Shown: one piece after another, positions 15,278 through 31,221 of the stretch
How the letters are laid out: each line of letters begins with the position of its first letter
How positions within the stretch are numbered: position 1 is the stretch's first letter
DNA from: Methylocapsa palsarum
GTDB taxonomy: Bacteria; Pseudomonadota; Alphaproteobacteria; Rhizobiales; Beijerinckiaceae
Assembly: GCF_900114285.1 (NCBI RefSeq)
Contig: NZ_FOSN01000011.1
Span: 62,001-126,000 of the forward strand
DNA length: 64,000 nucleotides
Direction: 5' to 3'
Made by a program: the position numbers and the translations under genes
The notes under the pieces: model-generated
What the model was told of the DNA's origin: nothing
The model's database searches: none
The model's input: the letters and a program-made list of their open reading frames with translations, nothing else

Positions 15278-16150
15278 TCACGCAGTTGACGAGCGCAAGC
15301 GCGACGCCTCAGCGGACAGTCTGGCGGCGTCCGGAGACCACGGGTCGCCCCAGGATGGATTGGCTCTTGTCGCGAGGACCGAATGGGCCCTGCTTCGCCC
15401 GTCTTTGACGGGAGCGGAGCTGTGAACCTTCGAGATCAGACGCAGGAAATTATCCCCGAAGACCAAAGCCTTGTCGGATTGCGTCAAAGGCAAAGCCCGG
15501 GCCTTGGCCAGCTCCACGCCCGGGTGCAACCACGGTCCATCGGAGCCAAACAGGATTTTCCGGGCGCCCGCGCGGCGGACGGCCTGTTCCAGGATGTCGA
15601 ACCTGCGGACGCCCGCCGTGTCAGTGTAGATGTTGGGATGACGGACCAGATGGTCGATCAAAGCCACCTGCGCCCGCCAGTCGTCCGCAAAACTGCCAAG
15701 ATGCGGGATGATGAAGTTCACGTCGGGATATTCTTCGGCCAGCAATTCACACACCGCCGCCTCGCCCATCACGTCGTAAAGCACCGGCAGCGAAAAGGCG
15801 CGCGCGGCCTCGCAGACCTCACGGCTGATGGGCGCGTCGTGCCGGTGGAGCTTGATGCCGACAAAGCCGAATTCTTCGACAGCGCGCTGGACCAGATCTC
15901 GGACGCGCCCGCGATCCCGCACGCTATTGACGAAGGCGAAGCCAAAAAACCGGTCCGGCTCGCTTGAGACGATGCGGGCCACCTCTTCGTTGGCGACGCC
16001 GTAATCGGAATGAAACGCGGCGAAAAGAACTGTATGGGTGACGCCGGCCTGCTTGGCGCGGACAAGATATTTGTCGAGCGGCGCGTTGGTGTCCCAGGGG
16101 CCGGTCAACCCGTCTCCTTTTCCGGCGTGACAATGGCTGTCGATAATCAT
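15278..16150 (-). CDS. Amidohydrolase (TIM-barrel metal-dependent hydrolase)
   Basis: The protein starts I-I-D-S-H-C-H, the paired metal-binding His motif of the amidohydrolase-2 family, and has a later His in I-I-P-H-L-G-S and the catalytic Asp in F-G-S-D-G-P-W-L. The natural substrate is unknown; relatives act on aromatic acids, lactones or amides. About 35 residues after the barrel (R-S-R-A-H-S-V-L onward) look like a non-conserved tail. The gene overlaps the upstream M20 peptidase by ATGA and is the last member of the long minus-strand operon starting at 27213. Confidence 0.82.
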   Translation of the reverse strand: MIIDSHCHAGKGDGLTGPWDTNAPLDKYLVRAKQAGVTHTVLFAAFHSDYGVANEEVARIVSSEPDRFFGFAFVNSVRDRGRVRDLVQRAVEEFGFVGIKLHRHDAPISREVCEAARAFSLPVLYDVMGEAAVCELLAEEYPDVNFIIPHLGSFADDWRAQVALIDHLVRHPNIYTDTAGVRRFDILEQAVRRAGARKILFGSDGPWLHPGVELAKARALPLTQSDKALVFGDNFLRLISKVHSSAPVKDGRSRAHSVLATRANPSWGDPWSPDAARLSAEASRLRSSTA

Positions 16151-17625
16151 GATCGAGGCCTCCGCTCAGCGACTGGAGAAAACGAATGGTACAGCCTTGG
16201 CGCGGCGCGCGGCGCTCCCATTTCGGCAAGAAACCCGATGCTTGTTTCGACGCCCTTGTGAAAATTGGAAAGACTGAATTTCTCATTGGGCCCGTGAATG
16301 CGATCGCCCGGCAGCCCAAATCCCATCAGCACGACAGGCGCGCCGAGTATTTCTTGAAGAAGGCCGACGACCGGGATCGTGCCGCCGCTGCGCAGGAAGA
16401 CGGCTGGAGCGCCGAAAGCCCGCCGATAAGCCCTCGCGGCGGCGCGAACCCCGGGATGGGCGCGGTCGAGTGACGCCGGTTTCACGCGCATCACCGTGCG
16501 GACCCGCGTTTGAACGCCAGGCGGCGTCACCCGCGCGATATAATCCCGAAACAGCCGTTCGGCTACAGCCGGATCCTGGTCCGGGGCGAGACGAAAGTTC
16601 AACTTGGCGAGGGCGCGCGCCGGGATCGCCGCCTTGACGCCGGGCCCGTTATATCCGCCGGAAACGCCGCAGACCGTCAAGGCGGGCCGGATTGTTGTCC
16701 GCTCGTAAAGCGTATAGCCGGGTTCGCCCCAACCATGAGTCGCGCCAGCCTCGCGCAGCATTGCGGCGTCGGACGGCCCCGCCTCACGCATGCCCGCCCG
16801 CTCCCCGGCGTCCCATTCGCGCACATCGCGGTAGAAGCCGGGAATGGCGATTCTGCCATGACCGTCATGCAGCCGCGCGATGATCTCACAAAGCGCTTGG
16901 ACGGGATTATGGACGGCTCCGCCGAAGACGCCGGAATGAAGCTCGCGCTTCTGGCCTCTCGTTTGTAGCTCGACGCTAAGCCCGCCCCGGAGCGAATAGG
17001 TGATTGCAGGGCGGTCCGGCGCCGGAATCTGCATATCGGAAACGATCGCGCAATCAGCCGCGAGACCGCCCCGGTTCGAGGTAAGATACGCGGACAGATG
17101 GGGGCTGCCGATTTCCTCCTCGCCCTCGAACAGGCATATCAAATTGACCGGCAACGCTCCCGCCGTCTTCAGCCAGGACTCGATCGCTTTGACATGCGCG
17201 AACATCTGTCCCTTGTCGTCGCTGGCGCCCCGGCCATGGAGATCGTCGCCGCGGATGATTGGGTCGAACGGCGGCGTTCGCCAGTCGTCGAGCGGTTCGG
17301 CCGGCTGGACGTCATAATGGCCATAGATAAGGACCGTAGGCGCGCCGGGCTCCGCCCGCCTCCATTCGGCGCGTACGATCGCCTGCCCTCCGGTTCGATC
17401 GATCGTGACCCGTTCAAGGCCGATCTCGCGCAGATGCCGCGCCAGCCACGCGGCGCAGTTCGCCATGTCGCCGGAATGGCTGGGCTGCGCGCTGACGGAC
17501 GCGAATCGGATCAACGATTGAAGATCCGCGACGAAACGGGGCCGGTTGGCGCGCGCGTAGCCAAGCGCGCGGCGCAAACGCCCGGCGCCCTGGCCGTCGC
17601 CGAAACTTTGCAAACGCGCGCCCAT
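16147..17625 (-). CDS. M20-family metallopeptidase (dipeptidase/carboxypeptidase type)
   Basis: Metal ligands and catalytic residues of the M20 family are visible: G-H-Y-D-V-Q, G-R-G-A-S-D-D-K-G-Q, the F-E-G-E-E-E-I-G-S block with the catalytic Glu, and a late H-G-P-N-E His ligand. The insert between residues 200 and 350 is the dimerisation domain. At 492 residues it fits the dipeptidase subgroup. It starts 18 bp after the 907-residue gene, with AGGA 9 nt before ATG, and is coupled to the amidohydrolase. In this operon it could digest peptides released by the other proteases; that is inference. Confidence 0.87.
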   Translation of the reverse strand: MGARLQSFGDGQGAGRLRRALGYARANRPRFVADLQSLIRFASVSAQPSHSGDMANCAAWLARHLREIGLERVTIDRTGGQAIVRAEWRRAEPGAPTVLIYGHYDVQPAEPLDDWRTPPFDPIIRGDDLHGRGASDDKGQMFAHVKAIESWLKTAGALPVNLICLFEGEEEIGSPHLSAYLTSNRGGLAADCAIVSDMQIPAPDRPAITYSLRGGLSVELQTRGQKRELHSGVFGGAVHNPVQALCEIIARLHDGHGRIAIPGFYRDVREWDAGERAGMREAGPSDAAMLREAGATHGWGEPGYTLYERTTIRPALTVCGVSGGYNGPGVKAAIPARALAKLNFRLAPDQDPAVAERLFRDYIARVTPPGVQTRVRTVMRVKPASLDRAHPGVRAAARAYRRAFGAPAVFLRSGGTIPVVGLLQEILGAPVVLMGFGLPGDRIHGPNEKFSLSNFHKGVETSIGFLAEMGAPRAAPRLYHSFSPVAERRPRS

Positions 17626-17643
17626 CGGCCCATCCTTTGAGGA

Positions 17644-20367
17644 TTACGCAGAGGCCGCACACGGCCTGTCGGGCCGGGCGCCGCCCTCGCCTGCGAGCTT
17701 CAACGCGAAGGCTTCGTAGCAGCGGGCGCTGCCCCTGCGCTGCTCCGCCGGATCGTGGAGAACGAACTCCTGGAACAGCTGATGCAGCATTGCGCGCAGA
17801 ATTGCGCCGGCCCGGAAGGCGCGCCGCGATCCGCCGGGTTGCGGCGAACCCTCCCAGAACCGGGGATGCAAGACGACCTCCCGGGCGCCGCCCGTGATCG
17901 CATGCGTATTGGGGCTGGCGTCAGGCGAAGCGCACCGGAACCTCGACCAGCGTCCGCCGCGTAGTTCCTGCGCGCTTGCGAGAAACCTTTGCGCGACGAC
18001 GGCGGCCGATGTCCTTTTGTCTGCAGCGGATGACGCCTGCGATGGTTCGCGCCCGAAGAAAAACTGGAACATTCGCATCGTCTTCATGTCCATCGGCTTC
18101 GCGCTCAATTTGCGAGCCGCATGTCTGGCGAGCGCAATGGCGTCCTGAAGGGCGCGGTCCAGGATCGCGTGGCATTCTGCCTGCCGACGCGGCGCGCAGC
18201 CTGCTCCGCACGCGAGACGGAACGCCGGGCGAACCGGCGGACTCGCCGCGCGCTCCGGGTCGTATGCGGAGCGGCGAAACGAATCTCCGAGGCTCGCCGG
18301 GGAGGCCGCGAAGTCGAACTCCAGCTCTTTCTTGCTCGGCGGCGTGCAGCCGCCGGGCTCGATGTAGTCGGGGCCGACATGAGCTTTTCCTTTCGGCGCC
18401 GACTTCGAGTAGGCGCACCAGCTGTTGTTGCGTCCGGCGCATCCCGAGTTGTAATGACCAAACACTTTCGGGTTCTTCAACGCGCCGGCGAGATGCTCGA
18501 GCAAGGATTGCGCGAAATTGTCGTGATCGCCTCTTTCGTCGCAGCCATAGGCCTGATTGCAGCCGTGCAGAACGAAGATGACGTTTTCGGACAGGATATC
18601 GGTCGGGATGTCGGCGATCGACCTCGCCCCGTTGGCCCGCGTTCCCGCGCCGAGGAAATACGAATTTTGGTAAAGTCCCGTTTCGGCGTCCGCCCCGATC
18701 ACGCCGGACGGGAAGCTGTGCCCAAAAATATGTACGGTCTGGAGAGGCTTCTTGCCGGAGCATTCCCATGCAGCCCTGATCGCGGCGATGATATCGGCGC
18801 CGGTCTTGAAGGAGGTCGCGCCCACCTTGGGCGCGCAATTGGCGGCGTTGGGGCTCCCGATGGCTGCAATTCTCCTCGCCGTGCCCGCCGCCTGGTGCTG
18901 GAAATGATTGCGGTGACTGGAGTTGCTCGACTCAAGATACAAACACAATTTCGGCTGGACGCTTGCGGCGCGGCGCGGCGCCGTCTGCTCCCATTCCTGC
19001 AATTCCTGGCTGATTTCGCGCTCGCGAGCGGGGCTCGGCCTCGGCACGCCGCAGCCCGGCCCTTCCGGCGGCAGCTTCTTAAGCGCCTCGCATTTCTCGC
19101 CCTGAACGGGTTCGGACAGCAAATGGACCTCGACGCGACGATTGGCGGCGCGCGCCGCGGGCGTAGCTGCCGATTGGGCAGGGTCCGTCTCGCCCATGCT
19201 GTTCACGACGAACGTCAGGGAGCCGGCCTGGTTGCCAAGCGCCATGCAAAGCGCCTGCTTCACCGCTTTCGCGCGGCGCAGGCCGAGTCCATAATTGTAG
19301 TCGAGTTTGCCTGAAACATCGGTGTGGCCGACAATGCACACACTGGGAACCGGTTTGCGTCGCGCCGCGCGCCGCATGATTTCTCGCGCGATCGCGTCGA
19401 CCTGCGCCAGGTGATCGCGTGTCGAATCCTTGCGCAAAATTGATTTGTCGAATTTGAAATGGTCGAGGACGGCGAAGGGTTTGCCGCCGCAGATCACAAC
19501 TTCGCCGAGATCGATCCGACGCCGCGTCCGCGTGGCGGGCATTGGCGCGCCGCGCGGAATTTGGCGAGGCTTGACCCCGGGCTTTGCGAAGGCGCCGGGG
19601 CCCGGCGTCCGCGCGTAGTTAAAACTGCTTTCCTGCTCAAAACCGGATTGCTCCGTCTCGAACGATTCGAACGCCTCTCCAAATTCGGACTCGAACGGCT
19701 CGGGGGAAAATTTCAAAAGCTTGTTCATCACGGCTCTCCCGCTGGGTTTGTTGAAGGTCTCCCATTCCAGTTCCATTTCTTCGGCCGGCTCGGCCGGCGA
19801 AGGCCCCGGCGCCGGCTTCGATCCCGCCGCGGCCGCGTCCGGCTCCGGGGCGCCGTCCCCGGCCGGCTGACGGCCTCTTGCGGCGAGCAGCGCGCGTTCG
19901 GTGTCGGGGCCGACCACTCCGTCGACGGGAAGACCTTCGTTTCGCTGAAAGCTGCGAACGGCGCTGCGCATCGCCGATCCAGGCACGCCGTCGACCGGCA
20001 TTTGCAGGCCGAGCACATCATTGAGGGCGCTCTGCGTCCAGCGAATGTACTCCGAGCCGGCCGGTGCGGCCGCCGCGATCGCATCGGGCTCAACGAGGCC
20101 CCAGGAAGAGATCCACCGCCCATGCCCGCGTGGAAACCGTCCGCGCTGCGCCGCTCTGGCCGGAACGCTTTTCTGGAAACCGGCGTAGGCCGGAAAGCCG
20201 GATTGCGAAGGCTTGCGCCAGCTCCTCTGCTGCGCTTTGGGTCTGGCGCGATAGGCGCCGCGGGAGCGACGGCCTGCTTCCTCCTCCAATTCGGAGCCGC
20301 CATCCTCCCGGGCAAGCGTATTGTAAAAGCTGAAAGGCATCGACTCGAAGTTGAGTTCGCTGTTCAT
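17644..20367 (-). CDS. Multidomain protein: peptidoglycan-binding, OmpA and possible caspase-like domains
   Basis: Numbering from ATG 20367 (GGGAGA 6 nt upstream) gives 907 residues. Residues 1-30 carry the motif F-E-S-M-P-F. Residues 105-165 form a peptidoglycan-binding domain (Q-S-A-L-N-D-V-L-G and G-L-P-V-D-G-V-V-G-P-D-T). Residues 215-250 repeat the motif (F-S-P-E-P-F) in an acidic aromatic stretch. Residues 293-420 are an OmpA domain with V-G-H-T-D and N-R-R-V-E-V. Residues 474-650 contain hydrophobic strands ending in F-G-H (His 550) and L-H-G-C (Cys 603), the spacing and setting of a caspase-like His/Cys pair. The C-terminus resembles a zinc endopeptidase whose HExxH motif is lost (L-H-Q-L-F-Q). 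There is no signal peptide. It overlaps the preceding stop codon region and belongs to the long operon. Confidence 0.75.
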   Translation of the reverse strand: MNSELNFESMPFSFYNTLAREDGGSELEEEAGRRSRGAYRARPKAQQRSWRKPSQSGFPAYAGFQKSVPARAAQRGRFPRGHGRWISSWGLVEPDAIAAAAPAGSEYIRWTQSALNDVLGLQMPVDGVPGSAMRSAVRSFQRNEGLPVDGVVGPDTERALLAARGRQPAGDGAPEPDAAAAGSKPAPGPSPAEPAEEMELEWETFNKPSGRAVMNKLLKFSPEPFESEFGEAFESFETEQSGFEQESSFNYARTPGPGAFAKPGVKPRQIPRGAPMPATRTRRRIDLGEVVICGGKPFAVLDHFKFDKSILRKDSTRDHLAQVDAIAREIMRRAARRKPVPSVCIVGHTDVSGKLDYNYGLGLRRAKAVKQALCMALGNQAGSLTFVVNSMGETDPAQSAATPAARAANRRVEVHLLSEPVQGEKCEALKKLPPEGPGCGVPRPSPAREREISQELQEWEQTAPRRAASVQPKLCLYLESSNSSHRNHFQHQAAGTARRIAAIGSPNAANCAPKVGATSFKTGADIIAAIRAAWECSGKKPLQTVHIFGHSFPSGVIGADAETGLYQNSYFLGAGTRANGARSIADIPTDILSENVIFVLHGCNQAYGCDERGDHDNFAQSLLEHLAGALKNPKVFGHYNSGCAGRNNSWCAYSKSAPKGKAHVGPDYIEPGGCTPPSKKELEFDFAASPASLGDSFRRSAYDPERAASPPVRPAFRLACGAGCAPRRQAECHAILDRALQDAIALARHAARKLSAKPMDMKTMRMFQFFFGREPSQASSAADKRTSAAVVAQRFLASAQELRGGRWSRFRCASPDASPNTHAITGGAREVVLHPRFWEGSPQPGGSRRAFRAGAILRAMLHQLFQEFVLHDPAEQRRGSARCYEAFALKLAGEGGARPDRPCAASA

Positions 20368-20393
20368 GGCGGGTCTCCCGTTCTGTTCCATCG

Positions 20394-21488
20394 TCACGAA
20401 ATGAGAGCGCGGCGCTGCGGCGTCCGAGCGGGCGCGAGCGCGCGCTCTAAAGCCTCCGCGCAGCGGTCGATATCGGACAACGAGTGCAGCGTAGTGATTA
20501 CGAAGGCGATGGCGGCCCCGAACATGTTTCTGGCCTGCCGCAACACGGCCCGGACGCCAAGATCGAGCAATCGCCCATAAAGCCGTCGCGGCTCGACGTC
20601 CGCCGTGACTTCCATGGTTTGCACGGGAAACATTCCGCCCCGCGTCGAGAGGCCGATCTGGCGCAGCGCGGCCCGGAAAGAGCGCACCAGCGCGGCGAGA
20701 CGTCGGCGCAGGTTCTCGCCTCCGTTGGAGGTGATGTCGAGGGCCCGCTCCGCCGCGCTGATCGCGGCCTGAGACGGCGGGCTCGAATGGACTCTCGTCG
20801 CGCTTCCCTTCACGAATTTCGAGATCACGCGTCCGTCTCCGCCGAGAACCGCGAGCGGCGCGCCAAAGCTTTTCGCAAGTGAATTCCCAATGATGAGTTC
20901 GGGCCCTCTGACATTCAGAAAGGCCGGCGTTCCTCCTCCTCCGGTCCCAAACGGATCGCTGTTCGTGGGCTTCTCGCCGAGGAGCCCGAACGCTTGCGTA
21001 TCATCGACGACGACGTATCCGTTGCGCTCGCGCGCCAGCTTCACATAATCTGGCAATGGAGCGGTCCGACCGGTCTCCACGCAGAGACCATCCGTGACCA
21101 CAACGGGACGGCGGCGGAGGTTATGATCACGACGAAGCAGGCGCTCCAGCGCAGCGGCGTCGCGCATCTCGAACATCGCCACAGGTACGCCTTTTGCGGC
21201 CGCGCGTTCGATCCCCCAGCGCACCGTCGGATAGGCTCCGGCGTCAGTATAAATGGCGATGGGTTCGCTCGCCAACACTTCGAACAAATCGCAGTACAGG
21301 TGAAGCGTCGAGGGCGCCAGAACAGCGCTCTCAACTTGCAACAGGCGCGCCAGAGCGTCGCCGGCCCTGATCGCCTCCGGCGTGGTTTCGAGCGCCGCCG
21401 GCCGTCCTGTCGTCAGCTGCGCCCAAGGACGCAGCGACCCGGTTGAATGGCGAAGGCCCAAATAGAGCGAAGACGTGAAGTCGAGCAT
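20394..21488 (-). CDS. PLP-dependent acyl-CoA transferase-like enzyme (BioF/KBL family)
   Basis: The 364-residue protein follows the alpha-oxoamine synthase pattern: V-V-D-D-T-Q-A-F-G, where the Asp contacts PLP, then N-S-L-A-K-S-F-G-A-P-L, with the Schiff-base Lys, and a C-terminal substrate domain. Family members join an amino acid to an acyl-CoA with loss of carbon dioxide, as in biotin or sphingolipid-like synthesis. The usual D-D-A-H-x-x-G is D-D-T-Q-A-F-G, so the His stacking on PLP is replaced by Gln, which makes a different chemistry possible. It lies inside the sigma-54 operon, 15 bp after the 684-residue gene, and ends 27 bp before the start of the 907-residue gene. No biotin genes are near. 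Confidence 0.8.
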   Translation of the reverse strand: MLDFTSSLYLGLRHSTGSLRPWAQLTTGRPAALETTPEAIRAGDALARLLQVESAVLAPSTLHLYCDLFEVLASEPIAIYTDAGAYPTVRWGIERAAAKGVPVAMFEMRDAAALERLLRRDHNLRRRPVVVTDGLCVETGRTAPLPDYVKLARERNGYVVVDDTQAFGLLGEKPTNSDPFGTGGGGTPAFLNVRGPELIIGNSLAKSFGAPLAVLGGDGRVISKFVKGSATRVHSSPPSQAAISAAERALDITSNGGENLRRRLAALVRSFRAALRQIGLSTRGGMFPVQTMEVTADVEPRRLYGRLLDLGVRAVLRQARNMFGAAIAFVITTLHSLSDIDRCAEALERALAPARTPQRRALIS

Positions 21489-21503: not shown

Positions 21504-23558
21504 TTAGATTTCCTTGCGGTATGCGGGCAGTTTCAGCCGGCCGGCCGATCCCGGCCGGCTTTGGCCCTGACCCCTCTGATCCACAAGTCTTGGCTCAGCG
21601 AGTCTTGGGTCAGCCAGTCTCTGGGCCGACATCCGCTGTCCGGAGACCCGCACGGCGATCAGGTCGGCCTCAGCCTGCCCTCTGACCGGGAGAGCCGACT
21701 TCTGCTCCATGAGCCGGCGCTGCAACAATACCGAGGGCTGAAGGTAGCGGGAGGCCGCGTCGCTCGAGTCGGTGACTTCCGCCGCCAGATCCACGCCGGA
21801 GACTGTCCGGTAGCCATGGATGTAGCGCTGGATCTCGGGTTTGCAGGAGCGCGCCCAGTTCTTCGCTTGGTCCTCGATGTTCTCGATGTCGGACCAATCG
21901 CCGTAGCGGATGGAAAGCAGGATCCGCTCGCCGGTCACCGCAAGTTCATAGAAGTGGGTGATCGTAGTGTCGGTCCAGCCCTGGAGTTTCTTCATGCTGT
22001 CGACGGCGCCCATCCATCCTTCCTGGTAGGGAACCATATAGCGGCCGCGCAAAAACTCCTTCATCTCCGGCCGCGCCAGCATCCATTGCATCGTCAGCAT
22101 TTCTGCTCGGGCGGTCCAGGTCAGGTCTCCAAACTGGTTATGCGCGCCCTCGGCCAGAAGCAGATGAACCTCCTTGAGGGCGTTGAGCAACGGAAACGCG
22201 TCGGCATAGATGGTCGTATCGGAATCTTCCCTGAAGAAACGCGCCGCGGCGCCCAGAAGATTATGAAACCCCTCTATGAATTTCGAGCGGCTGTCGGCCG
22301 GATCGAGGTCGGAGACAGCCTTGCCCATCAGCGGCAGACCGTAGTGATGCAGGTATTCGTGCGCGCGGCGCGACACGGTCAAACGGTTATGTTCGTCCTG
22401 GATATAGCCCCAGATGAGGTTGTTGAGAGGACGAAGGGGATCGAATTCGAGTTCCTTCAACGGGTCGTTCACCGAGCCTCGCCGATTCTGGAAACGCCGC
22501 GCGACCGCGTTCATCGTTTGAACCAGCATCCCCTCCTCAAGCCAGTAGGACCATATCAGCTCGATCAGGCTTGGTGACGACAGGCGGTGCTGCAACACGC
22601 CAAAGCAGTAGGGAAGCACTTCGTCGACGCGATGACCGTCGAGGGTGATCAGGTTTTGGACGATGCGATCGAGGTAGGGAAGATGATCCGCGGGACCAAG
22701 ATAGGCCTGCAGCTCGCTCTTGAGTTGAGGAACGTCCAGCGAAAAGTCATTGAGACGGATGCGCTCTTTCTCGATGTCCAGGATTTTCGCCTTTTCCGGC
22801 TCTCCTTCCCTGATCACGACCCCGCTTTCAAGGGTCAGGAACAATTGCGTCGCCAGCTTCAGGACGCTATAGGCGGAAGGCCCATAGATGCTGAGCTGTC
22901 TCCGGTCGGAGCGATCGAGGGGGTCAAGGCATCGTTCTCCCAATCCCGCGAACGCGTTAATGTCGGCGCCAGAGTTGCAGGAGAAAATGCAATCTATGAA
23001 TTGCTGATAACGATCGAATCCGATCGATGCGGTGCGGTTTCGAATCGCCGTCCACAACGCGCGGTCATCCGTCGGACCGGCGAATGTACGCTGCAGAGTA
23101 ACTTTTGATTCAGTCTCATAGTGTCGTGTGACCACATCGAAGGTGGTCGATCCTACGAAATCCACGCCGGCGGGCTCGGAAAGCGCCGTTGTCAGTACGG
23201 CCCATTCTTCGGCTGTAGGTGTTTCACCAGACGCGAATTGCGGCGCTGGCGGATGAGCGCCGGCCTTCAAGGTGATGGTCACGTCTATTCTGTAGTCTCC
23301 ATCCGGCAGATCGGGGAGTTTTTTATGCGCCGGATTTGTCCTGTTCCCGAATGTGAGTCTATTGTCCGAGTCGACGGCGTACGTATAGTTGAAAAAGCTG
23401 TAGAACTCCTTGTTGGTTTCATACGGGACCTCGCCATAATGGGAATGCCCGAGAGTCGTGGTTAAAGTGATCGTCTCGCCCTTGCGCACTCTGCGCGGCA
23501 CCGCCGAAAGCCGGCCTTCCCAATGACCGGGGTCGATTGAAACAGTAGATCTTGCCAT
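21504..23558 (-). CDS. Large conserved-looking protein of unknown function (684 aa)
   Basis: I recognise no family. The N-terminal 150 residues are rich in beta strands (V-S-I-D-P-G-H-W-E-G-R-L and I-T-L-T-T-T-L-G-H-S-H-Y-G), suggesting an Ig-like or carbohydrate-binding-like domain. The rest is alpha-helical with several Cys and many Trp. The last 70 residues are low complexity, with repeats of R-L-A-x-P-R-L-A/V. No signal peptide or membrane segment is seen. The ATG at 23558 sits 8 nt after GAGGAG; another ATG two codons earlier is too close to that site. It follows the metallopeptidase gene in the long operon. Confidence 0.7.
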   Translation of the reverse strand: MARSTVSIDPGHWEGRLSAVPRRVRKGETITLTTTLGHSHYGEVPYETNKEFYSFFNYTYAVDSDNRLTFGNRTNPAHKKLPDLPDGDYRIDVTITLKAGAHPPAPQFASGETPTAEEWAVLTTALSEPAGVDFVGSTTFDVVTRHYETESKVTLQRTFAGPTDDRALWTAIRNRTASIGFDRYQQFIDCIFSCNSGADINAFAGLGERCLDPLDRSDRRQLSIYGPSAYSVLKLATQLFLTLESGVVIREGEPEKAKILDIEKERIRLNDFSLDVPQLKSELQAYLGPADHLPYLDRIVQNLITLDGHRVDEVLPYCFGVLQHRLSSPSLIELIWSYWLEEGMLVQTMNAVARRFQNRRGSVNDPLKELEFDPLRPLNNLIWGYIQDEHNRLTVSRRAHEYLHHYGLPLMGKAVSDLDPADSRSKFIEGFHNLLGAAARFFREDSDTTIYADAFPLLNALKEVHLLLAEGAHNQFGDLTWTARAEMLTMQWMLARPEMKEFLRGRYMVPYQEGWMGAVDSMKKLQGWTDTTITHFYELAVTGERILLSIRYGDWSDIENIEDQAKNWARSCKPEIQRYIHGYRTVSGVDLAAEVTDSSDAASRYLQPSVLLQRRLMEQKSALPVRGQAEADLIAVRVSGQRMSAQRLADPRLAEPRLVDQRGQGQSRPGSAGRLKLPAYRKEI

Positions 23559-23587
23559 AGTCATGTCTCCTCTATTGTAATAGTCGT

Positions 23588-24897: not shown

Positions 24898-25617
24898 TCA
24901 AATCCCGTAAAGAACGATCTTGTTGCCGCGGCGCATCCACCGGCCGCTTCGCCCGGAGGTGGCGCGGGAATAACCTGTCTCAACGCCGTCTCCTGCACGC
25001 GATAACAGGCCCGGCGCGTAGGTTTTCGCCGCCTCGACCGCGGCCGCCCTCGCGGCGCTGGACGGATCGGAGCCGGGGCGGCTGAAGGCGAGATTCTTGA
25101 CCGCTTCTCCGGCGAAGTTGACGTAGCGCCGCGCGATTTCGAAATCGCGATCCTCGCCGCTCAACCCTTCGAGTTCGAGGCCGAAGGCGCGCCCGGCCGC
25201 CTGCGCGGCGTCGCGTCCAAGCCTCGCCCCCTGCGCGCCGCCGAAATAGCCGCCAACGGCGGAACCTATTCCCGGCAGCGCCTGTTTAGCCGCCCCTTTT
25301 AGAATACCTCCGATCGCCTGGCCTTCGGGCGACCGGATGAATCCGCCGACCGCCTGCCCGGCTTTTGCGATGAGATCGCCGAGGAAGCGGTCGAGTTCCG
25401 CTTCGCTTGTGATCTCGAGCAACTCGCTCGCGAGCTCCAGCTGTTCAGTTTCGCCGAAGGTTTCGCCCATTTCACCGAAGACTTCCGCCTCGCCGAATTC
25501 ACCGAAAGTGGGGCCCTCGGCCTCGCCAAATTCAAATTGTTCGGCTTCGAACGGGCCCGATTCAAACAGGCCAGATTCGGACGAGGTCTCTAGCCGGATA
25601 CGGTCGATGTCGTGCAT
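24898..25617 (-). CDS. Glycine-rich paralogue C with acidic N-terminus and basic tail
   Basis: The ATG at 25617 is preceded by AGGAG at 6 nt spacing; an earlier ATG at 25635 overlaps that site. The 239-residue product has an N-terminal acidic aromatic stretch starting F-E-S-G-P-F, then L-E-I-T-S-E-A-E-L-D-R-F-L-G-D-L-I, then a glycine-rich hydrophobic core with repeated G-x-x-x-G spacing (residues 95-150), then E-I-A-R-R-Y-V-N-F-A-G-E-A-V-K, and it ends S-G-R-W-M-R-R-G-N-K-I-V-L-Y-G-I. It is clearly related to the products at 25683 and 26524 and to the first part of 27737-29317. No signal peptide. Function unknown. Confidence 0.75.
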   Translation of the reverse strand: MHDIDRIRLETSSESGLFESGPFEAEQFEFGEAEGPTFGEFGEAEVFGEMGETFGETEQLELASELLEITSEAELDRFLGDLIAKAGQAVGGFIRSPEGQAIGGILKGAAKQALPGIGSAVGGYFGGAQGARLGRDAAQAAGRAFGLELEGLSGEDRDFEIARRYVNFAGEAVKNLAFSRPGSDPSSAARAAAVEAAKTYAPGLLSRAGDGVETGYSRATSGRSGRWMRRGNKIVLYGI

Positions 25618-25682: not shown

Positions 25683-26495
25683 CTAGAAGTGAATGATGAT
25701 GCTCCTTCCACGCCGAACCCAATACCCGTTCCGATTGACCGTTCCACACTGACAAGCGCGCGCCGATTGCGCACATGTTGTGCATGTGTGTGGTCCACCA
25801 CCTGACGTCTTCGCCTGCAATCGGCGTGGCGCCGGAGCCGCGGCGAAGATCGCTTTCTCCGTCGCCACCCTTGTTGGAGCGGAGGCCGTGACTGGACTCC
25901 TGATCATCGGGCCTCCCTCCTGAATCATTTGAGCAGCCCATGCCGTCAGGACGTTGCGCGCGTGTGCGGTCGGATCAACATCTGCGGGCGGCGACGCAGC
26001 GGCCCTGGCGGCCTTAGCCGCTGCCCGCACGAAAATCCTAGCCGTCTCGAGGTCGCGTTTTTGGGGCGCTAACCCGCGCGTTCTTGTGTTCAGAGCCTGC
26101 TTGACGAGCGAGCCAAGTTTGCCTCGCCGTGCGCCTTCCGCGCGCCCTGCTCCAAATGGATCCGAAGTGTTCGAAAGGGCGGGCAGGATCTGTTCGCCTG
26201 CCGCCTCAAGGAGCCGCACGAGGGACCTTTTGGCGTGAGGACGGGCGGAGGCGCCAGTTCCCCAAGCTTTTTCGATGAGCGCTCGAAGAAGGCGCTTCAG
26301 TTCGGTAGCGTCTGCAGCCGAGAGGAGCGCCTGAGCCAGCGCAGTTTCCTCCGCGACGCCAAAGTCGCCGTTGCGCCGATGGCGCGGCGTACGCTCGCGA
26401 TCCGCCGCGCGGGCGAATGGCGAGGAGGCGAATGGCGACGGCTCGAATTTGACAGCGGCGGGCCGCCCGTTTGGCGTCGGATTGAAGTCAAACAT
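25683..26495 (-). CDS. Glycine-rich-family paralogue B, divergent, Cys-containing
   Basis: The start at 26495 has a perfect GGAGG 6 nt upstream. The N-terminus carries K-F-E-P-S-P-F-A-S-S-P-F, the same F-x-x-x-P-F motif as its neighbours. The middle keeps the family pattern A-T-E-L-K-R-L-L-R-A-L-I and D-L-E-T-A-R-I-F-V-R-A-A-A-K-A-A, but the glycine-rich core is shorter and more charged. A segment with four Cys (H-T-C-T-T-C and A-C-Q-C) precedes the tail N-G-Y-W-V-R-R-G-R-S-I-I-I-H-F, which matches the tails of the two flanking paralogues. The Cys cluster is unique to this copy and could bind metal. Function unknown. Confidence 0.72.
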   Translation of the reverse strand: MFDFNPTPNGRPAAVKFEPSPFASSPFARAADRERTPRHRRNGDFGVAEETALAQALLSAADATELKRLLRALIEKAWGTGASARPHAKRSLVRLLEAAGEQILPALSNTSDPFGAGRAEGARRGKLGSLVKQALNTRTRGLAPQKRDLETARIFVRAAAKAARAAASPPADVDPTAHARNVLTAWAAQMIQEGGPMIRSPVTASAPTRVATEKAIFAAAPAPRRLQAKTSGGGPHTCTTCAQSARACQCGTVNRNGYWVRRGRSIIIHF

Positions 26496-26523
26496 TATAG
26501 CCTCCGATCGAGCCGCAGCCCGC

Positions 26524-27213
26524 TCATCCGCAATTGACGATGATGACGTTGCGGCCATGGCGGACCCACCGGCCCGAGCGTCCGCCTGTCGCAGGATGCC
26601 CCGCGGGGCCGAAGAGCAGTCCAGGGACGTGTTTCGAAATGGCCGCCTTCACCGCTGCTTGCGCAACGGTCGCCGGGTTCGATCCCGGAGCGGTTTTGAC
26701 CGCGGCCTTGACCGCGTCGCCGGCGAGTTGCACAAATTTCTTGGCGCCTTCGAATTCGCGATCCTCGGCGTTCATTTCGGCTTCCAGACCGAGCGCGCCG
26801 CCCGCCGCCGACGCGAGCCCGCTGCCGATCTGGGCCCCTAGCGGCCCTCCAACAAAGGCGCCGAGCGCACCGCCTGCGAGCGGCAGCGCCTTTTTCGCGG
26901 CTCCCTTCAACAGGCCTCCCACCGCTTGTCCAACCGGAGATCGGACGACCGTGCCGATGGCGCGGCCCGCATTGCGGATGAGGTCGCCAAGAAACCGGTC
27001 GAGCTCCGCTTCGCTGTTGATTTCGAGCATTTCGCCGCTCAGCTCCATCACCTCCGCTTCGCTGAATACCTCGGATTCGCCGCTCCACTCCGATTCACCG
27101 CCCCACTCTGTCTCGCCGCCCCATTCAGCCTCGCCGCCCCATTCGGCTTCGCCGGTTTCATATGTTTCCATTTGCGGGTTGTATTCGAATGACTCGCGAT
27201 CAAGATTGGTCAT
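26524..27213 (-). CDS. Glycine-rich paralogue A with E-W-G-G repeats; first gene of the sigma-54 operon
   Basis: The ATG at 27213 has AAGGAGAC 6-7 nt upstream. The 229-residue product begins with an acidic region holding about five copies of a short unit E-A/T/S-E-W-G-G, followed by I-N-S-E-A-E-L-D-R-F-L-G-D-L-I-R, a glycine-rich hydrophobic core (G-Q-A-V-G-G-L-L-K-G-A and onward to about residue 150), then E-F-E-G-A-K-K-F-V-Q-L-A-G and the tail S-G-R-W-V-R-H-G-R-N-V-I-I. The glycine spacing suits helix packing in or on a membrane. A sigma-54-like promoter lies about 135 bp upstream. It is the promoter-proximal gene of a run that continues to 15278 with short gaps. Confidence 0.75.
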   Translation of the reverse strand: MTNLDRESFEYNPQMETYETGEAEWGGEAEWGGETEWGGESEWSGESEVFSEAEVMELSGEMLEINSEAELDRFLGDLIRNAGRAIGTVVRSPVGQAVGGLLKGAAKKALPLAGGALGAFVGGPLGAQIGSGLASAAGGALGLEAEMNAEDREFEGAKKFVQLAGDAVKAAVKTAPGSNPATVAQAAVKAAISKHVPGLLFGPAGHPATGGRSGRWVRHGRNVIIVNCG

Positions 27214-27346
27214 GGCTTTGTCTCCTTCTCGATGACGTCTTGCGGGATGTTGTTTCGTTTCCGGGATGTTGTTCGCTTCAAAGAATATGTTTGACGACGC
27301 TACATCGACCCTGGGCAATCATGCGCCTTGCCCGCACCAGGTATCC

Positions 27347-27361
27347 TCAATCTTTGTGCCA
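27347..27361 (-). promoter_or_regulatory. Sigma-54-type -24/-12 promoter for the minus-strand operon
   Basis: Read on the minus strand the sequence is TGGCACAAAGATTGA. The -24 element TGGCAC is perfect and the spacing to the -12 element is correct; the -12 element is TTGA instead of TTGC. Transcription would start near 27336, giving a leader of about 120 bases before the ATG at 27213. A sigma-54 activator gene is encoded nearby at 29857. Confidence 0.6.
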
Positions 27362-27377: not shown

Positions 27378-27690
27378 TCTACTCGAGTTTAGAGTTTTTG
27401 CCGGCGAAGCGCTCTTCGTCGCGGCCGGGTTTCCCGCGAATTTCGGCGAAAATCATTTCGCGCATGATTTGAAGCGCGAAGATCGGAAGACCGAAGGCAG
27501 GGATCACGCGCCGCAATCCGGTGGGATGATCACTCTTGAGCCGCAGTACTCGCGGCAGGGAATGAGAACAGGGCGGGCGGGTGAATCGCGCTTCGTTGTT
27601 TTGCGGTCTGATAGGCCTGTAGACGAAGTTCGCTTCGTCGGTTTGTGTGGGTCTTGCAGGGATTCCTCCTTGGTCCTCATGTGTAGGATT

Positions 27691-27705
27691 TGGCGCAAAC
27701 ATTGC
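27691..27705 (+). promoter_or_regulatory. Sigma-54-type -24/-12 promoter for the divergent plus-strand gene
   Basis: The sequence TGGCGCAAACATTGC matches the consensus TGGCAC-N5-TTGC at all but one defined position. A start near 27717 would leave about 20 bases before the ATG at 27737, with room for the GGAGG at 27725. It shares GGC-R-CAAA-S-ATTG with the minus-strand promoter. Confidence 0.72.
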
Positions 27706-27736
27706 GATGCCGCTTTGGCCAATTGGAGGGATCGTG

Positions 27737-29317
27737 ATGGGTAGAATAGATTTGGTCCGGCCGTCGCGCGCCATGCGAAGCGCCGCGCGAGCCCGCGCGC
27801 TGAACAGGATTTCGTTCGATGACGCCAGCGCTTCCTTGAGCGATGTCGAGGTGGATGAACTCGCCGCGCGGCTCGCAAGCGTTCGAAACAATGCGGAGTT
27901 CGATCACCTCCTTGGGGCGATTTTGACCCATGCGGCCGCACGAAGCGGCGGCGCTCTTTCCGCGCCGCTGGGCAGGGCGCTCGGAGGGCTTTTGAAGAGC
28001 ATCGCGCGGCAAGGGTTGAGCCGGGAGAAAACCGCCGCGGCGCTGGGGCTGGAGCTTGATGGTCTACGCGCCGCTGACAGAGAATATGAAGCGGCGAGGC
28101 GTTTTGTTCGTCTTGCTGGCGAAGCGAGCCGGCACGCAGCGGAAAGCGCCTTGCATTTGCCATCGGGCCTCGCGGCGAAAGCCGCGTTGGCGGCAGCCGC
28201 CGACATCTATGCGCCTCCAATGCTATCCACATCCGCGCTGTTTGGCGCGTGCACTAGCGAAAATCGTCGCGAGGGCGGCGTGCGGCAAGGGAGAATGCGG
28301 CGCGACCTACTGTGGTCGCCCGAGCTGGAGGTGGCCGAACTATGGGTTGATCCCTTCGACTACGATCCGGAAATGGAATATTTCCTTGGCGGGCTCATTC
28401 GCTCCGCCGGCCGGGCCGTTAAGGGTGCCGTGCGCGCGGTCGGGAAGATCGGCCCGATCCGGGATATCGCGCGAGCCGCCGGCTCCATCGCGAACACCGT
28501 GAGCAAGGCCGCGGACGCCATCGGCAAGATCCCGATCCTTGGCGACGTGGCGCGCGCTGGCGTAGGCGGTTTGCGACTCGCCCTGGGGCCGACCGCAATC
28601 GCCATTGACGCCGGATCGCGCCTCGCGCGCGGACAGAGCATCGGGGACGCCTTGAAAGGCGCTGTGAAAGGACAGATCGACGCGGTGCGCGATCAGCTGA
28701 AGGTGGCTGAAATGGTCGCGCCCTTTATCCCTGGCGTCGGCACTGGCGTCGCCGCTGCGCTCGGGGCGGCGAATGCGCTGGCCGCCGGACGTCCCATCAC
28801 CGAGGCCGTGCTCGCGGCGGCGCGCGGCGCGGTTCCCGGCGGGAGAATAGCCCAGGCCGCCTTCGATGTAGCGATGAACCTCGCGAAGGGCCGAAACATC
28901 GGGGAGGCCGCGCTGGCGGCCGCGCGCGATCAATTGCCGGGAGGCCCGGCGGCGCGCGCCGCTTTCGACGGAGCGGTCGCTCTCGCGCAAGGCAAGCGCC
29001 TCCAGGACGCCGCGTTCACGGCGGCCGGCCGCATTCTGCCGCCCTCCCCTTATGCGGCGGATGCGCTCGATTTCGTGCGCCGGGTCTCGAACGGACAGAA
29101 CGTTCAAAACGCGGCTTTGTCCGTGGCCGGACAACGCATCCTGCGGCAGGTCCGGGCGAATTCTGTGGTCGCCGCCGCACTGCCGGGGGCCGTCCGGTCG
29201 CTACCGGCCGGGGGCGCCGCCTGGCGATCCCTCCAGCGATTGCCGAACAGGCGGCTGGCGGGAAGGATTCCCTCAAGGACGTTGTATCGCCCGGACGCGA
29301 TGCGGCGGCGCGCATAA
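27737..29317 (+). CDS. Glycine-rich-family paralogue D with a C-terminal Ala/Gly helical repeat domain
   Basis: The ATG at 27737 follows GGAGG at 7 nt spacing and a sigma-54-type promoter. Residues 1-175 correspond to the operon's paralogues: L-A-S-V-R-N-N-A-E-F-D-H-L-L-G-A-I-L, G-R-A-L-G-G-L-L-K-S-I-A, then E-Y-E-A-A-R-R-F-V-R-L-A-G-E-A. Residues 215-320 hold a second glycine-rich region. Residues 320-480 contain about four repeats of 36-37 residues with the core A-L-A-A-A-R-x-x-L/V-P-G-G-x-x-A-x-A-A-F-D-x-A. The basic C-terminus lacks the W-x-R-x-G tail. No signal peptide. It appears to be a larger, divergently expressed relative with an added repeat domain. Confidence 0.72.
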   Translation: MGRIDLVRPSRAMRSAARARALNRISFDDASASLSDVEVDELAARLASVRNNAEFDHLLGAILTHAAARSGGALSAPLGRALGGLLKSIARQGLSREKTAAALGLELDGLRAADREYEAARRFVRLAGEASRHAAESALHLPSGLAAKAALAAAADIYAPPMLSTSALFGACTSENRREGGVRQGRMRRDLLWSPELEVAELWVDPFDYDPEMEYFLGGLIRSAGRAVKGAVRAVGKIGPIRDIARAAGSIANTVSKAADAIGKIPILGDVARAGVGGLRLALGPTAIAIDAGSRLARGQSIGDALKGAVKGQIDAVRDQLKVAEMVAPFIPGVGTGVAAALGAANALAAGRPITEAVLAAARGAVPGGRIAQAAFDVAMNLAKGRNIGEAALAAARDQLPGGPAARAAFDGAVALAQGKRLQDAAFTAAGRILPPSPYAADALDFVRRVSNGQNVQNAALSVAGQRILRQVRANSVVAAALPGAVRSLPAGGAAWRSLQRLPNRRLAGRIPSRTLYRPDAMRRRA

Positions 29318-29856
29318 ACCATTTCCTCACTGCTCAATAGGCGAGGCGCCGTCGACAACACCGCGCCAGACCGTTGTATAGAGCGCCTATCCGATCGGAA
29401 TGCTCTCTACATAGAGAGAGTCGCTCGCGGCGCGTGTTGGGGCCTAGCAATCAGTCATTGTGCGCGATTGGATGTGGATGTGATTGGAATTGTAAGACAG
29501 GATGGTCTAACGTGGATGGTTCGACGAAGCATTTGCGGCGGCGCATCAGCGGCGACGCCTTGTTTTATTTTCGCTTACCAGGGATTGACCACACCTGGCG
29601 TCAACAGCTTCGAAAGACCTGGCTGCCTGGGTCAAGCCGCCAGGATCAAGCCGCCAGGACGTTTTGGCGAGCGAGCCTCGCCGAACCGACCTGCGAAGAG
29701 ATCTTGATTGCATCGAATGAACAGATGATGCCGTCATGCCGGGGTTCGACCTAATTTATCGCCGCCATCATTGCGACGGCGCCAATCAGACTTGGCGGCG
29801 AACGGCCACCGGATCATCTCACGTTGTGAGCGACGATTCCACGGGGAGGTAGGATC
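29318..29856. other. Intergenic stretch with a truncated repeat copy
   Basis: These 539 bases precede the sigma-54 activator. At 29379-29405 a fragment TAGAGCGCCTATCCGATCGG joins the two ends of the dispersed 120-bp repeat, as if the middle were deleted. A small hairpin CTCTCTA-CA-TAGAGAG follows at 29403-29418. The rest has short open frames without ribosome-binding sites. Confidence 0.5.
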
Positions 29857-31221
29857 ATGGAGATCCATTGCTGGATTCATTCATGGGACGGCTCATCGGA
29901 CGCGAATCGTAACGCTTTGATTGAGGCTTTGGCGCAACAAGGCGTCAAGGTCGCGCCCTTCGACGCAAAGACTTCCTCCCTCACCGGTATTCTGCTGTTC
30001 GCCAAGACCACGCCGGATCTTCAGTCTTTCGTTCAAATCGCGAGCCAGGCCGGCAAAATCCGCGTGATCGGAATAGGGGATCTGAAGACCTCGACGAGCG
30101 GCCACTGGAAGCTCCTGCAATCTGGAGCGTCCGACATCTTGACCTGGAGCGACGCCGAACGGGCGGCAAGACAAATCAAGGCTCGCATCGACAGGTGGTT
30201 CGCTCTCGACGAACTCATGGATCAACCCATGGTCTCCGAACTTGTCATCGCCAAGAGCCCGACGTTGCGCGCCACCCTGCGGGATCTGGTCGAAGTGGCG
30301 CGCTTCAGCGAAGGAAATATATTGCTTCTGGGAGAAAGCGGCACAGGCAAGGAAGTCGCCGCCCGACTTGTCCATCTCCTCGACCCGCGCGCGAACAAGC
30401 GCGATCTTGTCGTCCTCGATTGCGCGAGCATCGTCCCCGAATTGTCCGGCAGCGAATTCTTCGGCCACGAACGGGGCGCGTTCACCGGCGCCTTGACCGA
30501 TCGCCAGGGAGCCTTCTCCCTGGCGAATGGCGGCACGCTTTTTCTCGACGAGGTCGGAGAACTGCCTTTGCCGCTACAGGCGCAATTGCTACGCGTCATC
30601 CAGGAGCGCACTTTCAAGCGCGTCGGCGGCAACACATGGGCCAAAACCGCGTTCCGCCTTGTTTGCGCCACCAACCGCGATCTGCTGGATCTTGTCCATC
30701 GCGGAGCGTTTCGCGCCGACCTCTATTATCGCATTGCAGGTTACGTCTGCAGACTGCCGCCGCTTCGCGAGAGGCCGGAAGACATCATTCCACTGGCCGA
30801 GCATTTCTTGCGGCTGGCGAGTCCGAACCGCCTTCCGCCGACTCTTGACGAGAGCGTGCGCGATTTTTTGATGCAACGGGATTACCCCGGAAATGTGCGT
30901 GATCTCCAGCAGGTTGTGTCTCAATTCGTTCACCGCGCCTCTGCCGACGGCTCGGTCACAGTCGGATGCGTTCCCGCGGCGCAGCGTCCGGTCGTCGAAC
31001 TGGACAAGAGCGGATGGCTCGATTCCTGTTTCGAGCAGCCGATTCACCGCGCCGTTCTTCTCGGAGCCGCTCTCAAGGAGATCAGCCGCGCCGCGGAGGA
31101 CGCAGCCATCCGTTTCGTCACTAATGAGGAAGATGGCAATCTTCAGCGGGCCGCGCGTCGGCTCGGCGTGACGGACCGGGCGTTGCAACTCCGCCGCGCT
31201 AACGGGCGGCATTCGGATTGA
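29857..31221 (+). CDS. Sigma-54-dependent enhancer-binding transcriptional activator
   Basis: The 454-residue protein has a receiver-like but atypical N-terminal domain (residues 1-125, without the usual paired Asp cluster), then a complete AAA+ activator domain: Walker A G-E-S-G-T-G-K-E at 159-166, the sigma-54 contact loop G-A-F-T-G-A at 207-212, and Walker B G-T-L-F-L-D-E at 226-232. A Fis-type DNA-binding helix pair (N-L-Q-R-A-A-R-R-L-G-V-T-D-R-A-L-Q-L) ends the protein. The ATG follows GGGGAGGT. Because two sigma-54-like promoters lie in the divergent region at 27.3-27.7 kb, it most likely controls that cluster; the degenerate receiver suggests a signal other than standard phosphorylation. 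Confidence 0.92.
   Translation: MEIHCWIHSWDGSSDANRNALIEALAQQGVKVAPFDAKTSSLTGILLFAKTTPDLQSFVQIASQAGKIRVIGIGDLKTSTSGHWKLLQSGASDILTWSDAERAARQIKARIDRWFALDELMDQPMVSELVIAKSPTLRATLRDLVEVARFSEGNILLLGESGTGKEVAARLVHLLDPRANKRDLVVLDCASIVPELSGSEFFGHERGAFTGALTDRQGAFSLANGGTLFLDEVGELPLPLQAQLLRVIQERTFKRVGGNTWAKTAFRLVCATNRDLLDLVHRGAFRADLYYRIAGYVCRLPPLRERPEDIIPLAEHFLRLASPNRLPPTLDESVRDFLMQRDYPGNVRDLQQVVSQFVHRASADGSVTVGCVPAAQRPVVELDKSGWLDSCFEQPIHRAVLLGAALKEISRAAEDAAIRFVTNEEDGNLQRAARRLGVTDRALQLRRANGRHSD

Follow-up and report, generated by a model that had tools for sequence, protein, structure and literature searches.

Nine closely spaced genes on the minus strand of a Methylocapsa palsarum contig, a divergent paralogue, and a sigma-54 activator raise the question of whether they form one inherited system and what such a system might do. 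The window analyzed here is a stretch of 64,000 nucleotides (assembly GCF_900114285.1, contig NZ_FOSN01000011.1, positions 62,001–126,000), in which the cluster occupies positions 15,278–31,221; all coordinates below are those of the window. The nine genes (27213 to 15278) are all uninterrupted ORFs, and the cluster as a unit exceeds chance. We conclude with high confidence that it is a module whose cargo is polymorphic and which is controlled by sigma-54. Whether its purpose is delivery to other cells is an evenly balanced question.

The minus-strand genes begin with three members of a family of glycine-zipper proteins, termed F3. Paralogue 1 (26524..27213) combines an acidic-aromatic N-terminus with a glycine-zipper middle and a C-terminal GxWxRxG motif. 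Paralogue 2 (25683..26495) is the most divergent; its start is an internal Met picked by eye, and the ORF calling used for the family counts missed it. Paralogue 3 (24898..25617) has an MHDIDR-type start, which is frequent among relatives. The divergent gene (27737..29317, plus strand), recovered as an ORF and by paralogue search, encodes an F3 joined to a long, repetitive domain rich in alanine and glycine. This divergent arrangement is repeated in the related loci L007, L010, and L011. The original prediction had counted four paralogues, and identities of 27, 47, and 35% to one of them in an alignment agree with this. A search of the organism's own genome with one F3 paralogue gave matches confined to this cluster.

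The next gene on the minus strand, F2 (23588..24892), was predicted to encode a HEVGH metallopeptidase. The motif is real: H189, E190, and H193 as well as the downstream E231 and D235 were invariant in 46 aligned sequences. With HExxH and a candidate third ligand, F2 fits the pattern of a zinc metallopeptidase and is regarded as a putative peptidase. F1 (21504..23564, minus strand; 684–686 residues) consists of an N-terminal domain predicted to be Ig-like, the structural comparison having covered this beta domain (residues 1–149), and a conserved all-helical core. It is followed on the same strand by F4 (20394..21488), a PLP enzyme of fold type I, a protein of about 915 aa (17644..20391), an accessory M20 dipeptidase (16147..17625; domain matches; 8 of 56 loci), and F5 (15278..16150), an Amidohydro_2 hydrolase/decarboxylase-like enzyme. 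The M20, amidohydrolase, and BioF/KBL-like assignments of the original prediction were each borne out by domain searches. The activator F0 (29857..31221, plus strand) is likewise present as claimed, as is the divergent paralogue.

No Pfam or NCBIfam model matched F1, F2, or F3 over its cut-off, F2 gave no Pfam match even at E 0.1, and F1 and F2 had no relatives among PDB sequences.

A genome scan with F1 returned 55 further loci from seven phyla (phyla taken from record titles), and thus 56 including the window. F1 is present in all 56 by selection, since the loci were collected with it. F2 and F3 were each found in 50 of the 56 loci, F4 in 43, and F5 in 39; some of the 13 loci lacking F4 and the 17 lacking F5 are cut contigs. 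F2 lay at most 300 bp from F1 in 47 loci, and F3 less than 500 bp ahead of F2 in 48. A gene of the F0 family occurred in 50 loci, in 44 of them less than 6 kb from F1. When 398 evenly sampled Pseudomonadota genomes were searched, F1, full-length F2, and strong matches to F3 turned up in the same four, and all three carriers other than the window's own genome showed the gene order F3-F2-F1-..-F5/F0. F2 of G429 and F1 of G509 in this sample were profile matches with one internal TGA, though the ORFs found at these places have 493 and 683 residues. Neighborhood clustering around the 684-residue protein had been proposed beforehand as a check, and its outcome was positive: the homologues of the three proteins F1, F2, and F3 keep together as one co-inherited unit instead of lying scattered across genomes. 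The module is rare within each group, yet spread over very different bacteria, and both the tree and its occurrence on plasmids indicate horizontal spread. On plasmid pBPHY01 of Paraburkholderia phymatum STM815 (NC_010625.1), locus L075 has the order F3-F2-F1-..-F5/F0 at about 1,550,118–1,557,154, a position calculated from the locus coordinates. A description of the module was not found in the open-licence literature among the matches listed, and module genes are not named in the relevant text of two P. phymatum papers (PMC5979394, main text of an rpoN RNA-seq study; PMC5748707).

Between F4 and F5 lies a variable slot. The original prediction had recognized neither that the gene of about 915 aa occupies it nor that the module has spread horizontally. 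Domain searches by sequence, run on 47 hand-chosen proteins of 78 slot proteins together with three RpoN, identified glucosaminidase, amidases, endopeptidase, phospholipase D, lipase, trypsin-like, GIY-YIG, and other types of cargo. A constant part accompanied by exchangeable toxin-like domains suggests a polymorphic toxin system. The window's own cargo was predicted to join a possible caspase-like part to peptidoglycan-binding and OmpA domains. PG_binding_1 and OmpA were confirmed, and an invariant His (FxHS) and LHGCN were found in three homologues. In clan CD, the catalytic His and Cys end adjacent hydrophobic strands. A caspase-like assignment of the His/Cys domain is plausible; this domain matched neither Pfam nor PDB sequences. 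The tail resembles, by eye, the metallopeptidase of relatives, its zinc motif not being intact, and the protein looks like two cargo units fused.

For tests of the protein ends, 11 hand-judged non-cargo proteins and four of less than 140 residues were removed from the 78, leaving 63 cargo proteins from 50 loci. Aromatic-Glu pairs ([FYW]E or E[FYW]) reached 3.23 per 100 residues in the first 60 residues of the cargo and 2.29 in the last 25, whereas 150 flank proteins gave 0.64 and 0.53. Such acidic-aromatic pairs are common to the cargo ends and F3, where they occur at 3.69 per 100 residues (1.32 expected). F3 proteins are mostly 200–320 residues long with a conserved middle part, and 70 of 83 carry the C-terminal GxWxRxG motif, which did not occur in any other group tested. 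By crude hydropathy, a signal-peptide-like start was seen in 0 of 63 cargo proteins and in 74 of 348 flank proteins.

F4 resembles 8-amino-7-oxononanoate synthase (AONS), KBL, and serine palmitoyltransferase as a fold-type-I PLP enzyme with the lysine motif retained. Its best PDB sequence match was 1bs0 (E 1.6e-14), and it fell under the cut-off of every one of the 11 NCBIfam models matched, with 64.7 bits against a cut-off of 426.45 for the AONS model. The AONS motif is DDxH, whereas the consensus of 41 F4 sequences reads DDxQ. An assignment as AONS was rejected on both grounds.

The link to sigma-54 begins with F0, which contains a Sigma54_activat domain (E 2.6e-55) with a visible GAFTGA loop. 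Its AAA+ and HTH region is that of RtcR/PspF-type activators (RtcR_PspF2 in PADLOC, 4.7e-83); in contrast, its N-terminal region (approximately residues 1–125) matched no Pfam family. An AAA+ activator with a sigma-54 interaction domain thus adjoins the operon. The candidate −24/−12 site of the minus-strand genes, TGGCACAAAGATTGAG (27346..27361, minus strand), lies 132 bp ahead of the first start codon, and its −12 element is poor (p = 0.295). A good candidate, TGGCGCAAACATTGCG (27691..27706, plus strand), lies 30 bp ahead of the divergent gene, with matching sites in L007, L010, and L011. A plain scan of the window gave 22 sites at two mismatches where 26.6 were expected, and because this count is not above expectation, the window's sites convince only through relatives.

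These relatives were informative. For the 49 of 56 loci with F3 ahead of F2/F1 and enough upstream sequence, a site with p ≤ 0.01 preceded the first F3 in 32, while 14 had p > 0.05. Sites scoring ≥17 were found ahead of 35 of 83 F3 genes and five of 317 flank genes, and ahead of none of 50 F0, 55 F1, 48 F2, 43 F4, 39 F5, and 78 cargo-slot genes. Loci L029 and L030 had no site scoring ≥16.8, though rpoN is present. For the family, the operon promoter appears to be sigma-54-dependent, as originally predicted; the window's own main site is imperfect.

Genome-wide checks for RpoN and sheath genes covered 48 loci and the window's own genome. RpoN was found in all 49 carrier genomes; in three of these the sole copy found is inside the module, with places matched by coordinates. 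Three Actinomycetota genomes and one Chloroflexota genome have the only rpoN gene found inside the module. All three RpoN domains were above the Pfam cut-off in L029, which was scanned singly. Among 112 Geodermatophilaceae genomes, RpoN occurred in three, the same three that have full-length F2, two of which were known beforehand. All three have rpoN inside the module; one is Modestobacter excelsi by its title, and the third, G663, reads RpoN - TGGCACGTTCCGTGCA - F3 - F3 - F2 - F1 .. F0. Since five further Geodermatophilaceae genomes hold a divergent F2 and no RpoN, the family of F2 extends beyond the sigma-54 module. Neighbor proteins of divergent F2 (L072/L073, L083/L084) look like F1 by eye; homology was rejected, as the hhalign match was not significant.

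The module looks like a weapon or lysis system because core and switch are constant while cutting enzymes for wall, lipid, protein, and DNA are swapped. In the mechanism that we propose, F0 would sense a signal and open the −24/−12 promoter with RpoN. F3 and cargo would be gathered on an F1/F2 core via the similar acidic-aromatic pairs at their ends, and F2 might trim or activate F3, the cargo, or both. F4 and F5 may modify an end of F3 or cargo, or synthesize a small co-factor or a signal; both roles are guesses. The F3 glycine zipper could serve as carrier or membrane passage through which signal-less cargo exits, and the released cargo would attack neighboring cells at their wall, lipids, proteins, or DNA. 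The original prediction of an envelope-directed or exported system is plausible because peptidoglycan or lipids are what much of the cargo binds or attacks; as to export, crude hydropathy showed no Sec-like start in the cargo, and neither of two injection machines tested is linked to the module. No immunity gene was noticed by eye beside the cargo at the loci, a surprising feature in an antibacterial weapon.

This last feature would suit a module for self-lysis or cell death, in which F3 would be a holin or pore former, the cargo an endolysin or a suicide nuclease or protease, and F2 an activating protease, with a sigma-54 trigger for altruistic release or defense. The cargo without signal-like starts, its many wall-degrading or PG_binding_1-containing members, which recall endolysins, and the glycine-rich F3 are all consistent with it. 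Phage holin-endolysin cassettes also bring together PG_binding_1 and wall hydrolases without a Sec-like start, but the module has non-lytic cargo too, is under sigma-54 control, and has no F2 relative in phage records. A suicide gene would need neither cargo diversity nor shared ends, and lipase and trypsin-like cargo are unusual in lysis. As crude hydropathy found no transmembrane-like stretch in any of 83 F3 proteins, membrane insertion of F3 is a conjecture. PADLOC matched, among ten window proteins, just the activator in its AAA+/HTH part and the cargo in its OmpA part, which also counts against this reading. We consider self-lysis unlikely.

Improbable, too, is a ribosomal-peptide or small-molecule pathway with F3 as precursors, F2 and M20 as peptidases, F4 and F5 as tailoring enzymes, and the cargo as accessory. 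The adjoining AONS-like enzyme, amidohydrolase, and peptidases and the constant F3 C-terminus would be expected of such a pathway. A family that by eye looks like ABC exporters (F13) was counted in seven of 56 loci, in two Thiothrix loci directly ahead of F3, by naive ORF calling that also gave the false families F7, F8, and F10 (wrong-strand ORFs in GC-rich loci); it is absent from the other 49. The cargo consists mostly of large lytic rather than tailoring enzymes, the length of F3 and its conserved middle do not suit precursors, and F4 is closer to AONS/KBL than to autoinducer synthases.

Some T6SS are under sigma-54 control, and the effector enzyme classes of T6SS loci are like those of the module. 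It is nevertheless very improbable that the cluster supplies cargo and adaptors to a known injection machine (PVC/eCIS or T6SS) whose genes lie elsewhere in the genome. According to the part of PMC3482391 consulted, PVC-SS toxins from many phyla have variable hydrolase (including glucosaminidase and protease), nuclease, and lipase domains with OmpA and PG-binding modules, a metallopeptidase domain of the pattern HExxHxxQ-E, and no adjoining immunity genes; F2 carries HEVGHQ and a later E, and one F3 weakly resembles a tape-measure protein (E 0.0053). In contrast to PVC/eCIS, the module's HExxH protein is a separate gene with no Pfam family at E 0.1, and a sigma-54 activator, a PLP enzyme, and an amidohydrolase belong to it. 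The phage-type sheath (PF04984) was found in just 21 of 49 carrier genomes (19 over cut-off) and the T6SS sheath (PF05943) also in 21; neither was found in the window's own genome, and each was not found in 28 of the 49, some of which are incomplete bins; a tie to either machine was rejected. The reading as a metabolic operon was also rejected, since a constant core goes together with a changing, lytic gene in the slot from F4 to F5, and a phage origin is ruled against by the absence of F2 matches in 50,697 phage records.

Taken as the whole explanation, an effector module that is switched by sigma-54 and moves horizontally stands at about an even chance. More tentatively, and somewhat short of that, it may be an independent, previously undescribed delivery system, crossing phyla with its own sigma-54 circuit, which would be private to this module in Actinomycetota. 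F3 would be the carrier, F1 and the zincin-like F2 would sort and trim effectors by their acidic-aromatic ends, and the slot could take any effector that has them.

The available text of a 2025 survey (PMC12316311) has Modestobacter marinus among 4 of 173 listed and concludes that Actinomycetota are effectively without functional RpoN. Set against this survey, the module would give a simple explanation for the stray rpoN genes of the phylum. If the effector reading is true, a small portable system would be common to several phyla and named in none of the family libraries searched. It would provide a new exit route for unsignalled enzymes and a short sorting feature that is also new, and antibacterial enzymes could be drawn from it.

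A scan for the core protein F1 (684–686 residues) across a collection with one genome per species (84,980 species) returned 55 loci, or 56 together with the window. Genes at these loci were called with a codon model trained per locus, followed by profile searches. F1 itself counts 56/56 by construction, as it was used to select the loci. Several contigs being cut, the glycine-zipper paralogues (F3) and the putative HEVGH metallopeptidase (F2) were each found in 50/56 loci, the BioF-like PLP enzyme (F4) in 43/56, the amidohydrolase (F5) in 39/56 and the M20 dipeptidase in 8/56. A gene of the sigma-54 activator family (F0) was present in 50/56 loci, but this family is broad; it lay within 6 kb of F1 in 44/56. 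The distance between F2 and F1 was at most 300 bp in 47/56 loci, and F3 was located at most 500 bp upstream of F2 in 48/56. Typically, one to three copies of F3 are followed by F2, F1, F4, the variable cargo proteins and F5, and then by F0 in facing orientation.

In a sample independent of the F1 selection (398 evenly drawn Pseudomonadota genomes), F1 was found in four genomes, F2 in seven (full-length in four, E below 1e-150; the remaining three at E 1.5e-25, 2.6e-18, and 2.2e-4) and F3 in five (four strong, the fifth at E 1.3e-5). The strong matches to all three families fell in the same four genomes, the window's own included; the module is therefore rare (~1% of the sample) yet kept together. 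The other three carriers showed F3-F2-F1-..-F5/F0 in order, with F4 in two. All ORFs claimed in the original prediction are present in the window (minus-strand genes from 27213 to 15278, a divergent F3 fusion at 27737–29317 (+), and F0 at 29857–31221 (+)). The proposed unit, a sigma-54-controlled cluster of glycine-rich paralogues with proteases, proved real, and wider and better defined than claimed. A search of the window's own genome found F3 confined to this cluster. The 126-residue ORF between the divergent fusion and F0 (29374–29754 (+)) has the appearance of a chance ORF.

Promoters were scored by the best −24/−12 match from 400 bases upstream to 60 bases inside the first F3 gene, with p-values determined against first-order Markov shuffles. 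The first-F3 sites reached p ≤ 0.01 in 32/49 loci and p 0.05 in 35/49. A site scoring at least 17 preceded 35 of 83 F3 genes versus 5 of 317 flank genes, and no such site was found before F0 (0/50), F1 (0/55), F2 (0/48), F4 (0/43), F5 (0/39), M20 (0/9), or cargo-slot genes (0/78). In the window, the site of the divergent gene scores 17; that of the minus-strand set scores 15, which on its own is not significant. The same pattern, one perfect and one imperfect divergent site, was observed in locus L007, and two good divergent sites each in L010 and L011. No −24/−12 site scoring 16.8 or more was found in L029 or L030, which counts against sigma-54 control.

RpoN was found in 49/49 carrier genomes examined. 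In three Actinomycetota loci, the only rpoN found per genome lies inside the module (L029, 5089–6378; L030, 5094–6383; L082, 9651–10988), as it does in a Chloroflexi bin (L039, 15974–17317); for L029, L030, and L039 the sole copy was matched by coordinates. Two publications state that Actinobacteria are without sigma-54 (PMC3162934; PMC12316311), one of them with Modestobacter marinus BC501 among four initial RpoN hits and the phylum judged to lack functional RpoN (PMC12316311). Among 112 Geodermatophilaceae genomes, RpoN was found in three, and full-length F2 in the same three. Since two of these were known beforehand, new evidence comes from G663 only, where the order is RpoN - TGGCACGTTCCGTGCA - F3 - F3 - F2 - F1 - .. 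- F0. Divergent F2 (1e-43 to 1e-21) without RpoN in five further genomes of the family counts against the sigma-54 link.

The protein content of the slot between F4 (or F1) and F5 changes from locus to locus. A set of 50 proteins (47 of 78 cargo-slot proteins, hand-picked, and three RpoN) was compared to Pfam at E 0.001. Among the 25 of 26 families listed, PG_binding_1 (15) and OmpA (10) were the commonest, followed by DUF2272 (3), trypsin-like (3), glucosaminidase (2), and Amidase_2 (2), with one each of NlpC/P60, PLD, M74 endopeptidase, LCAT-type, VanY, GIY-YIG, Zn-dependent phospholipase C, M35, and M10. GIY-YIG-like proteins were seen by eye in further Burkholderiales loci (L042 at E 0.0019, under the cut-off). 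Judged by its domains, the repertoire is effector-like. For 63 cargo proteins from 50 loci, a crude hydropathy criterion gave no signal-peptide-like stretch within the N-terminal 40 residues (0/63 versus 74/348 flank proteins). F3 contains an excess of aromatic-Glu pairs ([FYW]E or E[FYW]; 3.69 versus 1.32 expected per 100 residues), and so do the cargo ends, with 3.23 in the first 60 and 2.29 in the last 25 residues, compared to 0.64 and 0.53 in flank proteins. A per-protein z above 2 was obtained for a fraction of 0.33 of cargo, 0.81 of F3, and 0.04 of flanks, and a simple end rule was passed by 44/63 cargo versus 41/150 flank proteins. With a start-like motif seen by eye in its interior, the window cargo (~915 residues) looks like two fused units; by eye, its C-terminal region is similar to the metallopeptidase-like segment of relatives and has no intact zinc motif.

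F1, F2, and F3 gave no Pfam match over the cut-off and no NCBIfam match at E 0.1. PADLOC returned nothing for F1, F2, F4, F5, and three of four F3; PHROGs nothing for F1 and F2, and weak matches for F3 (E 0.003–0.008). Profiles of F1 and F2 found no relative among PDB sequences up to E 5. Within the limits of these searches, none of the three core families has a named relative.

F1 was found in none of the 148 other relatives searched, 14 of which belong to the same genus. Four genomes of the same genus share synteny over the block immediately past F0 (31304–38404; a HEAT-repeat-like gene by eye, a FAD flavoprotein, an ABC transporter, and NMT1-like genes), which ends right beside the activator. 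Given the minus-strand repABC set at 38748–42854 (RP-C 38748–40013, RepB 40627–41646, ParA-like 41649–42854), the window lies on, or contains, a repABC-type replicon; it belongs to a plasmid or chromid of this type or was recently joined to one. F2 relatives occur in five plasmid records, from Rhizobium (two), Ensifer (one), and Paraburkholderia (two, of which one is a weak match), and in no phage record. A tree built from 46 F2 proteins places the window in one group (97/92) with two Methylococcaceae and Bradyrhizobium NAS80.1, and three other Bradyrhizobium stand apart. The tree covers seven phyla by record title, some records being metagenome bins with possibly misplaced contigs (e.g., Williamsia L050 beside Ferruginibacter). 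Elsewhere in the window, a beta-eliminating lyase gene (threonine-aldolase-like; 14135–15173 (-)) is apparently split across two frames, with a Pfam match in 14520–15173 and none in 14135–14554, and is probably a pseudogene or frameshift. A 1428-residue hybrid protein (48223–52509 (+)) carries two stretches each of histidine-kinase, receiver, and PAS domains, and a transposase gene (Tnp_DNA_bind) is located at 58400–59854 (+).

At the level of sequence comparison, the anatomy, co-inheritance, promoter with activator, and exchangeable cargo of the module can be regarded as established. In the proposed mechanism, F0 and RpoN would turn the gene set on, the shared ends of F3 and cargo would gather both onto F1/F2, F2 would trim F3 and cargo, and F3 would provide the exit route. 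Delivery to neighbouring cells is the most likely purpose, a reading we hold with about even confidence. Regulated self-lysis, which we consider rather unlikely, fits nearly as well on the cargo without signals and on immunity genes, none of which were seen by eye. Polymorphic toxin systems share the exchangeable cargo, as judged from sequence; by eye, no immunity gene was noticed. Membership in PVC/eCIS or T6SS fails on the machine: sheath genes of these two tested injection machines occur in less than half of the 49 carriers and were not found in the window's own genome, so the machines are not required. An ABC-exporter-like family was seen by eye near the module in only 7/56 loci. In L034 and L038 (both Thiothrix), such a gene (634 and 633 aa, by eye) lies directly 5' of the first F3 and is a possible export partner there.

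Distant F2-like genes were found in further loci. In L083 and L084 (Geodermatophilaceae; reverse strand), whose genomes gave no RpoN match, the gene lies beside a large protein, which matched the F3 profile in L083 (1.6e-8) and not in L084; F0 relatives were searched for on one strand of these stretches. A further protein carries PG_binding_1, DUF2272, and Phage_lysozyme2 in L084, and a weak, under-cut-off pesticin-like lysozyme match in L083. The F2-like gene of L072 is divergent, and that of L073 lies near an acidic glycine-zipper protein, which matched the F3 profile at 8e-7 and Gly-zipper_Omp at 0.0055, the latter under the cut-off. No F1 relative could be established at the distant loci by comparing profiles. 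F2-like genes with F3-like or lysozyme-like neighbours thus suggest that F3, F2, and cargo form an older theme, with the sigma-54-linked module as one branch and L083, L084, L072, and L073 perhaps as a second.
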